DNA of 64,000 nt from an uncultured Acidimicrobiaceae bacterium (GTDB lineage Bacteria > Actinomycetota > Acidimicrobiia > Acidimicrobiales > UBA10347): contig CAJJAG010000006.1 in the NCBI GenBank assembly GCA_905182135.1, positions 434,001 through 498,000 of the forward strand. Direction: 5' to 3'. Positions 58,399-61,221 of this stretch are shown here, one piece after another. A program made the translations under genes and the position numbers. Every line of letters starts with the position of its first letter. Positions within the stretch are counted from its first letter, which is position 1. The notes beneath the pieces are model-generated. The model had not been told where the DNA came from. It saw only the letters and a program-made list of their open reading frames with translations, and did not search any database.

Positions 58399-59412
58399 GT
58401 GCTCAGCGTGAGCCCTGCGGTACTCAGCCGAGCCAAAACCATCGTCGAACCAGCCCTACGCCATGCAGTGGGATCCCTCGACGAAAACCTCCGCCTACCA
58501 GTGACGTACCACCTGGGTTGGACAGACAAGGACGGCAACCCCTCTGACGCCGGAAGCGGCAAAGGTATTCGATCCGCTCTCGCAATCCTGGGCGCCGAAG
58601 CTGTCAATGCGTCAGCCGACGTTGCGATCGCTGGTGGAGTAGCTGTTGAGCTGATACACAACTTTTCGCTGATCCACGATGACATCATGGACAACGATCG
58701 CACCCGGCGCCACCGGGCAACAGTCTGGGATGTGTTTGGTATTGGCGAAGGCATCGTTGTCGGCGACGCCATGCATGCGCTCGCTTTCGAAATACTCCTT
58801 GATGACAGCCGCACCCCACACGGTGCAACGGCCACGCGTCGGCTAGCCAAAGCAACATCGGCCATGATCGCCGGCCAGGCCCAAGACGTCGCCCTTGACC
58901 GCGGCGCTACCGCCAGTCTCGCTGAGTGCATTGCCATGGAGACCAACAAGACCGGCGCATTGCTTGCTCAGTCGGTCGCTATCGGCGCCGTACTCGGCGG
59001 TGGCGATGATGTTGTTGTCGACGCACTCGAAGACTTCGGCATTGCACTCGGCATTGGTTTCCAGGCCGTTGATGATGTTCTAGGCATCTGGGGCGAATCT
59101 GCAACAACAGGTAAACCAGTTGGCAACGACCTGCGCGAGCAGAAAAAGTCCATGCCAATCGCTATTGCCTTTGACCGCGGGGGCGACATTGGCCAGGCGG
59201 TTCTTGACGCTTTCACTGGGCCGCTGAACGACAACCAGATCGCAGCACTTGCGTCCAAACTCGAATCGGCCGGCATTCGCGACGAGGTCCAGAGTATCGC
59301 TCGCGACTACCTCGACCAGGCGATCAAAACTCTCGACACCGTTGCGCTAGCGGCCCCAGCAAAGACCGAACTCATAGAACTCGCCAACTTCATCTGGGAA
59401 CGCGACTCGTAA
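58399..59412 (+). CDS. Polyprenyl (isoprenyl) diphosphate synthase
   Basis: A 337-residue trans-isoprenyl diphosphate synthase that elongates allylic diphosphates with IPP to C15-C40 products. The first aspartate-rich motif is HDDIMDND (D94-D98), the second is GFQAVDDVLGIWG, where the last Asp of DDxxD is Gly, as in many actinobacterial IdsA/GrcC-type enzymes. GKGIRSALAILGAEA binds the substrate diphosphate. It starts with GTG 58399 (58408 possible). Product length cannot be set from the sequence. It stands alone. Confidence 0.9.
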   Translation: MLSVSPAVLSRAKTIVEPALRHAVGSLDENLRLPVTYHLGWTDKDGNPSDAGSGKGIRSALAILGAEAVNASADVAIAGGVAVELIHNFSLIHDDIMDNDRTRRHRATVWDVFGIGEGIVVGDAMHALAFEILLDDSRTPHGATATRRLAKATSAMIAGQAQDVALDRGATASLAECIAMETNKTGALLAQSVAIGAVLGGGDDVVVDALEDFGIALGIGFQAVDDVLGIWGESATTGKPVGNDLREQKKSMPIAIAFDRGGDIGQAVLDAFTGPLNDNQIAALASKLESAGIRDEVQSIARDYLDQAIKTLDTVALAAPAKTELIELANFIWERDS

Positions 59413-59453
59413 CTCTTTCCAACTCGGTCAGCACTCTTTCCAACTCGATCAGC
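59412..59453. repeat. 21-bp tandem duplication at polyprenyl synthase stop
   Basis: actctttccaactcggtcagc (59412-59432) is repeated with one change (g to a) at 59433-59453, and starts at the last base of the stop codon of the preceding gene. Confidence 0.85.
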
Positions 59454-59545
59454 GTCTTTCTTCCTGCAACCGCACATCTGTTCCGGCACCGTCTGTGAAA
59501 CGAGGCGAGATCACCTCTGTCGCCGAATGCGCACCGTGTATGTCT

Positions 59546-59635
59546 CACCATCTGTGTCTACACCATCTGTGTCAGACACAGATGGTGAGGGTGTTACACC
59601 ATCTGTGTCAGACACAGATGGTGAGGGTGTTTGGT
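59546..59635. promoter_or_regulatory. Two tandem 27-bp perfect palindromes upstream of amt
   Basis: The palindrome caccatctgtgtc-a-gacacagatggtg occurs at 59561-59587 and 59597-59623, with an extra left half-site caccatctgtgtc at 59546-59558 and the repeated spacer agggtgtt after each. The direct-repeat unit is 36 bp. It lies 180-260 bases before the ammonium transporter start, so it may be a regulator binding array or a dispersed palindromic repeat. Confidence 0.75.
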
Positions 59636-59805
59636 TCGCGCAGGATCGCGAGGCCCAGCGGCCGATCTGGGCTACCCCGAAACACGACGGAAACGTTTCT
59701 GAATCACAGCGTTCACTCGGTGGGAACACACGCGAAATAGTGTGTTCCTAGGTTTACCTCACGCACAACACTGCGCCCGACGCGCAGGTTACGGGAGGTA
59801 ACGAA

Positions 59806-61221
59806 ATGAAACGCAAGTTCTTAATCGCTGCAGTGGGCGCAGCGATCTTTGGCTTGGTGCCAGCTGCACCGGCTATGGCCCAAGAAGCAGAGGCTTTATC
59901 GCCAGAAGCCGTACAAGCGATACTCGACAACATCTGGGTGTTCGTAGCCGGCATTTTAGTCTTCTTGATGCAGGCGGGCTTCGGCCTTGTAGAAGCGGGT
60001 CTGACCCGAGCCAAGAACGTGGCCAACATCATGGCCAAAAACATCGCCGACATGTGTATCGGCGCCCTGGCTTTCTGGGCCATTGGTTATGGCATTGCGT
60101 TCGGAGACGGCCAATGGATCGGAACCGACAGCTTCTTCCTGAGTGGCTTCGGAGACGGCAGCTTTGATGGCGGCTACTCCGGCTACACGCCGTTCTTCTT
60201 CCAGGTCGTCTTCGCCGCTGCTGCGGTCACAATCGCATCTGGCGCCATGGCTGGCCGCACCAAGATCTCGGGCTACCTGATCTTCAGCGCCGTGATGACC
60301 GCATTTATTTACCCAGTCGTCGTCCATATGTTCTGGCAGGGCGATGGGATCTTGAACCGTATCACTGTTGGTGACGCCGCATTTAGTGACTTCGCAGGAT
60401 CATCTATCGTCCACTCAGCTGGTGGCTGGGCCGCCTTGATGGGTGCGTACTTCCTCGGACCTCGTATTGATAAGTACAGCAACGACGGCACCCCACGAGC
60501 TATCCCTGGCCACAACATCGCCTTCACCGTTATTGGTGTCTTCGTGCTGTGGTTCGGCTGGTTCGGTTTCAACGCAGGCTCAGAACTCGCCGCCGACAGC
60601 GTCGTCATCCGAGTTGGAGTCACCACGATGTTGGCCGCAGCCGCAGGCGGCTTCATGGCTGGCGCTGTCATGTGGATGAAGGTCGGCTTCCTCGATGTCG
60701 CCATGACGGCCAATGGAGTCCTTGCCGGCCTGGTCTCGATTACTGCTGGTACGGGAACAATGACGCCGTTAGGCGCAGTCATCACTGGTGCAATCGGCGG
60801 CATAATCGTGGTCTTCAGCGTCCTATTCTTTGAGCGCATTCACATCGATGATCCTGTCGGAGCTATCTCCGTCCACGGTGTCTGCGGCGTCTGGGGCACG
60901 CTCGCGATCGGCTTCTTTGCCAAGTGGGATGATGCATTCCTTGGCCGAGAAGACGCTGGCCTGTTCTACGGCGGCGGCGTATCACAGCTCGTCATGCAAC
61001 TTGTCGGTGTCGTCATCGTGGCCGCTTGGGTGCTGCCAACGACAGGCCTGCTGTTCTTCATACTCAAAAAGATGAACATGTTGCGGGTCAGCCCCGAAGA
61101 AGAAATCGCTGGCCTTGATGTCAGCGAACATGGCTCGGCCGGCTATGGCATCGAGACGACCTTTACTGGCAGCCTTACTAGCAGCCGATCCCTACAGGAC
61201 CAATCAGCCAGAGATAGCTAA
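59806..61221 (+). CDS. amtB: Ammonium transporter (Amt family)
   Basis: A 471-residue ammonium channel. A signal peptide (MKRKFLIAAVGAAIFGLVPA ending AMA) precedes eleven membrane helices: FVAGILVFLMQAGFGLVEAG carries the entry site, FDFAGSSIVHSAGGW-type DFAGSSIVHSAGGWAALMG the first pore His, and ISVHGVCGVWGTLAIG the second pore His. It moves ammonium in low nitrogen. AGGT before the ATG is a good site. No glnK or nitrogen regulator gene is adjacent. Two large palindromes upstream may mark its control. Confidence 0.95.
   Translation: MKRKFLIAAVGAAIFGLVPAAPAMAQEAEALSPEAVQAILDNIWVFVAGILVFLMQAGFGLVEAGLTRAKNVANIMAKNIADMCIGALAFWAIGYGIAFGDGQWIGTDSFFLSGFGDGSFDGGYSGYTPFFFQVVFAAAAVTIASGAMAGRTKISGYLIFSAVMTAFIYPVVVHMFWQGDGILNRITVGDAAFSDFAGSSIVHSAGGWAALMGAYFLGPRIDKYSNDGTPRAIPGHNIAFTVIGVFVLWFGWFGFNAGSELAADSVVIRVGVTTMLAAAAGGFMAGAVMWMKVGFLDVAMTANGVLAGLVSITAGTGTMTPLGAVITGAIGGIIVVFSVLFFERIHIDDPVGAISVHGVCGVWGTLAIGFFAKWDDAFLGREDAGLFYGGGVSQLVMQLVGVVIVAAWVLPTTGLLFFILKKMNMLRVSPEEEIAGLDVSEHGSAGYGIETTFTGSLTSSRSLQDQSARDS

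Follow-up and report, generated by a model that had tools for sequence, protein, structure and literature searches.

A palindromic array before amtB is very probably a copy of a dispersed REP-like family linked to a RAYT-type transposase

The array of tandem palindromes upstream of amtB is very probably a copy of a dispersed REP-like palindromic family that belongs to the one RAYT-type Y1 (HUH) transposase gene in the genome. The repeat is probably mobilised by this transposase, and it is very unlikely that the array is a nitrogen-control switch or operator. Its position before amtB appears to be incidental, and it would serve there at most as a transcribed spacer hairpin. A supposed nitrogen operator thereby becomes a transposase-linked repeat, and a false regulatory annotation is avoided. 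The family is also unusual among REP-like sequences, in that its tag is central and it is tied to a type of Y1 transposase reported to be REP-less, an association that is repeated in independent genomes.

Two tandem perfect palindromes, an exact 36-bp repeat and a left half-site, all described in an earlier note, are present in the window (the whole 64,000-nucleotide stretch analysed), and the flanking genes are polyprenyl synthase and amtB, as stated there. The features are as follows.

58399-59412, + strand: polyprenyl synthase (named by sequence reading, not family search)
59532-59544, + strand: possible further left half-site, CACCGTGTATGTC, degenerate with 3 mismatches, which may be chance
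59546-59558, + strand: extra left half-site, CACCATCTGTGTC
59559-59594 and 59595-59630, no strand: two identical 36-bp tandem units holding the palindromes
59561-59587, no strand: first perfect palindrome, CACCATCTGTGTC-A-GACACAGATGGTG, with core GTGTCAGACAC at 59569-59579
59597-59623, no strand: second perfect palindrome, CACCATCTGTGTC-A-GACACAGATGGTG, with core GTGTCAGACAC at 59605-59615
59806-61221, + strand: amtB-like transporter (named by sequence reading, not family search)

Both palindromes are 27 nt long, with 13-bp arms that are 100% complementary and a 1-nt centre. The first begins 149 bp past the polyprenyl synthase stop codon, and the amtB start lies about 182-183 bp downstream of the end of the second. 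Under a uniform base model, a 64-kb sequence would contain about 0.001 perfect palindromes that combine 13-bp arms with a 1-nt centre, and the DNA fold of positions 59540-59640 (-34.4 kcal/mol, z = -8.0) is equalled by no shuffle; the array is far beyond chance. Rfam matches to the array are microRNA hairpins, all sub-threshold, and were taken as chance matches to a long hairpin. Two 21-bp direct repeats, 95% identical, lie right after the polyprenyl synthase coding end (59412-59453), and an inverted repeat, GGAACACAC...GTGTGTTCC, was seen by eye upstream of amtB at about 59724-59750 of the window.

The exact 27-mer is absent from the viral_contigs and genome_contigs databases and from five congeners, and searches were therefore continued with a core. 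Ten exact matches to the 13-nt half-site were found in the genome, five of them outside the array, and comparison of the sites of these other copies gave the common part, GTGTCWGACAC. In the 2.36-Mb assembly (8 contigs, about 60% complete) this core is present in 34 copies, where composition predicts 1.1 and the reversed control gives none. The copies fall into 22 clusters. Of the 11 clusters with two or three cores, ten have a spacing of exactly 28 bp; the one in the window alone has 36 bp. The earlier note's guess that the 36-bp unit was recently duplicated in tandem fits the data, because comparable repeats spaced 28 bp apart are seen in ten other clusters, and its fallback reading of a dispersed palindromic element proved to be right. 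By an ORF heuristic all 22 clusters are intergenic, against a coding fraction of 0.84 (one overlaps a short ORF that was judged spurious). The family thus has the form by which REPs are defined, that of dispersed intergenic palindromes of 20-40 bp, with 13 of the 34 elements perfect to 27 nt. Judging by titles, a literature search for GTGTCAGACAC or GTGTCTGACAC as a repeat found nothing. Several clusters (L075, L076, L083 and L084) adjoin the upstream stop codon as CTAACC, in which AACC is similar to the beginning of an element arm; these junctions possibly reflect an insertion preference, or chance.

An 8-nt arm stands on either side of each core. From GACAC outward, the 68 arms conform to RRAKGRTK nearly everywhere (G5 and T7 are invariant, and A3 is found in 67 of 68) and are drawn from a small set of variants. 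The clusters are built of 13-nt half-sites (GACAC-RRAKGRTK) placed head to head around one A/T base and often in tandem, so that left half-sites are followed by a single orientation switch at the A/T centre and then by right half-sites. The outermost half-sites are often truncated, for example in AACCATCTGTGTC-T-GACACAGATGGTT-CGCAGATGGTT-CAGATGGTT. Against 5.0 elements with fully matching arms expected on re-pairing, 13 of 34 are observed, a count reached by 4 of 10,000 shuffles; the remaining 21 have imperfect outer arms and combine different arms. With matched arms in 13 elements and mixed arms in the rest, the elements seem to be assembled from half-sites, not from a fixed hairpin. Total arm pairing is no higher than in shuffles (202 against 200.7), and arm pairing alone is therefore not used as an argument for a hairpin.

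The only PF01797 (Y1_Tnp, Y1/HUH) gene of the genome, at C1:45196-46155 (E 2.6e-9), lies between two elements, ACCTTCTGTGTCAGACACAGAAGGT ahead of the gene and TTTACCCCTAACCCTTTGTGTCTGACACAAAGGGTTAGGGGTAAA directly past the stop codon. The upstream core is GTGTCAGACAC, with centre A, and the downstream core is GTGTCTGACAC, with centre T, so the two copies are mutually inverted. The family is thus associated with a Y1/HUH gene that sits between two inverted copies of the element, which is the layout of a RAYT unit (REPtron); the same layout is found in G082 and L138. The encoded protein is 320 aa long and carries the HUH motif NHYH, the tyrosine motif YIANNP, and a long C-terminal tail with no significant Pfam or NCBIfam HTH match. 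The NCBIfam family that fits it best is NF047646, “REP-associated tyrosine transposase” (E 2.5e-21; 76.1 bits, below the cut-off of 80). Similarity to E. coli RayT is weak and runs through both motifs, and a PDB sequence search returned nothing relevant. The gene encodes a RAYT-type transposase.

A homologue of the transposase is encoded in 14 of 395 genomes of the class. More than six cores are found in only two of the 395, the present genome (34) and G082 (88), and both are among the 14 homologue carriers (P = 0.0012). In the distant genome G082, a homologue is preceded by a pair of A-centred cores and followed by a pair of T-centred ones. The arms of these cores (GTCATCCG and variants) match those of the dispersed G082 copies that were read, and differ from those of the present genome. 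The homologue of L138, an uncultured member of Acidimicrobiales, is flanked by inverted GGGGTCAGACCCC palindromes 28-29 bp apart, with two GGGTCAGACCC units before the gene, at 28-bp spacing, and three GTCTGAC-centred units after it, at spacings of 28-29 bp. In L165, a further actinomycete, GGTGTCAGACACC lies upstream of the homologue, before the contig end. Among 80 transposase relatives in other bacteria, almost none has the palindrome and many have GGGGTCAG inverted repeats, while distant homologues from other phyla often have non-palindromic inverted repeats beginning GGGGTCAGGTCT. The PF01797 genes found in G005 (58 cores) and G046 (40 cores), which are fragmented assemblies 80-86% complete, are not flanked by the core. 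Palindromes of other sequence adjoin the Y1 genes in G046 and G001, as well as the second Y1 gene of G082. Different palindromes lie by other Y1 genes of the class (L208, L107, L109 and L211): GTTTGTCTCAGAGACAAAC (an inverted pair), AAGGTGAATGCCATTCACCTT, GACGGTGCCAGGCACCGTC and GATCACTTGCCAAGTGATC. The palindrome-flanked transposases do not group together in a quick tree, which is poorly supported.

The E. coli TnpA_REP member processes single-stranded REP in vitro, and seeding of REPs has been proposed (PMC8266576). By analogy, the transposase most likely recognises the GTCWGAC-centred unit in single-stranded DNA, as TnpA_REP does with REPs, and would cleave it and copy or move it into the spacers between genes. 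The tandem and truncated half-sites could then result from local slippage, or from a switch of template, at the hairpin. The rule of inverted A/T centres, together with the shift from GGGGTCAG to GTGTCAG, makes recognition testable in vitro. It is also possible, if somewhat doubtful, that there is a separate superfamily of centre-tagged REP-like elements, with GTCWGAC mid-palindrome, which are moved by long-tailed group-1/TIRYT Y1 transposases, are recognised via head-to-head half-sites or the hairpin tip and not a foot tag, and have evolved repeatedly from GGGGTCAG terminal repeats that are not palindromic. If this is true, the transposase subclass of the superfamily is one that was thought to be REP-less.

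The alternative that survives best, itself improbable, is that the elements are hairpin terminators or mRNA-stabilising hairpins that have been selected at gene ends with no involvement of a transposase. The strength of the hairpin agrees with this, as does the placement of the clusters, ten of which lie between convergent genes (nine are co-directional and three divergent) and several directly past stop codons. However, the excess of convergent placement is only suggestive (P about 0.06), three clusters being divergent, the outer arms are imperfect in 21 of 34 elements, and it is left unexplained why, in several genomes, Y1 genes lie between inverted elements. A terminator T-tract was looked for at the palindromes and none was found, so they do not show the combination of G+C-rich stem and T-tract of an intrinsic terminator; this supports the view of the earlier note that a plain terminator is less likely. 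As a secondary role, transposase-linked elements may terminate transcription or stabilise mRNA. Less probable again is that the elements are sites for a host DNA-binding protein (in chromosome organisation, or a global regulator) that flank the transposase gene by chance. The near-invariant A3, G5 and T7 outward of the core are as would be seen in a protein site, but high copy number is confined to two of 395 class genomes, the arms differ per genome, and homologous transposases are flanked, in inverted orientation, by the local variant in independent genomes.

The genes neighbouring the clusters encode a cyclophilin, a 3-hydroxyacyl-CoA dehydrogenase, a luciferase-like monooxygenase, a P450, amidohydrolases, a class II tRNA synthetase, a GTP cyclohydrolase, an aminotransferase and others. 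They are functionally unrelated, which weighs heavily against an operator specific to nitrogen. Four congeners carry an amtB orthologue (75-80% identical), and in three of them polyprenyl synthase lies immediately upstream. None of the four has the array before amtB; they are too distant for the insertion point to be placed. Nearer to amtB than the array is a GAAAC-rich block (window about 59679-59737, with elements GAAACA, GAAAC, GTTCAC, GAACA and CGAAA) that is common to all four congeners; it is likely to be the amtB regulatory region, and would be a better candidate for nitrogen control than the array. A single core-like GGTGTCTGACCCC in the polyprenyl synthase-amtB spacer of the congener G005 (L226) was considered and rejected as a case of conservation, as it resembles G005's own repeat type. 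Control of amtB by a nitrogen (or other) regulator acting at a multimeric operator, as the earlier note proposed, is the least likely explanation: tandem perfect dyads about 183 bp upstream of the amtB start would suit it, but in place of the few copies near nitrogen genes, conserved before amtB in relatives, that mark an operator, there are 34 core copies in 22 clusters, 21 of these lying elsewhere by unrelated genes and many at gene 3' ends, while what the four congeners retain is the GAAAC-rich block and not the array.

The transposase-linked family can be compared with three known systems. With the GTAG- and CGTC-tagged REPs of REPtrons, which sit inverted around RAYT genes (Nunvar et al. 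2010, PMC2817692; see also PMC3733652), it shares short intergenic palindromes, clusters, inverted copies beside the transposase gene, and a link between presence of the gene and copy number. It differs from them in copy number, which at about 34 against over 100 is modest for REPs, and in its build: no unpaired GTAG or CGTC stands at the hairpin foot, the arms running outward as RRAKGRTK and being variable, whereas the constant part is central. For this reason the element is not filed as a GTAG/CGTC REP, although by analogy it would work like one. A conserved tag at the palindrome centre, and not at the foot, is unusual. So is the transposase, which resembles the TnpA_Y1 subclass 2.1 of Quentin et al. 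2018 (PMC6006769) in its NHYH HUH motif, Y-I-x-x-NP tyrosine motif, long C-terminal tail, and replacement of W by F in the W motif (LFKGRF), the assignment being by motifs and not by the HMM of that study. No REP-like sequences were found near subclass 2.1 genes in that survey, in contrast to the elements beside the transposase here, which makes the association unusual.

The closest counterparts are the self-complementary repeat families of TIRYT genes (“TIRtrons”), whose terminal repeats carry the motif GGGGWSAS (Di Nocera et al. 2013, PMC3733652). As in the present family, TIRYT repeats, including the self-complementary Stenotrophomonas maltophilia ORF 1152 family, are inverted on both sides of a Y1 gene, have dispersed copies and short-distance clusters, and are self-complementary; GTCAG is held in common with GGGGWSAS, and exact GGGGTCAG is found in the close relative L138. 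Differences are that the match of GTGTCAG to GGGGWSAS is partial (6 of 8 positions if it is read as TGTGTCAG), that the whole unit is here a palindrome centred on GTCWGAC, and that the host is an actinomycete, placed in the order Acidimicrobiales from its relatives, whereas actinomycetes are a group unmentioned in the main text of PMC3733652. Since the GGGGTCAGACCCC flanks of L138 and the GGGGTCAGGTCT repeats of distant homologues fit GGGGWSAS, the window element is best seen as a palindromic relative of the TIRYT terminal repeats.
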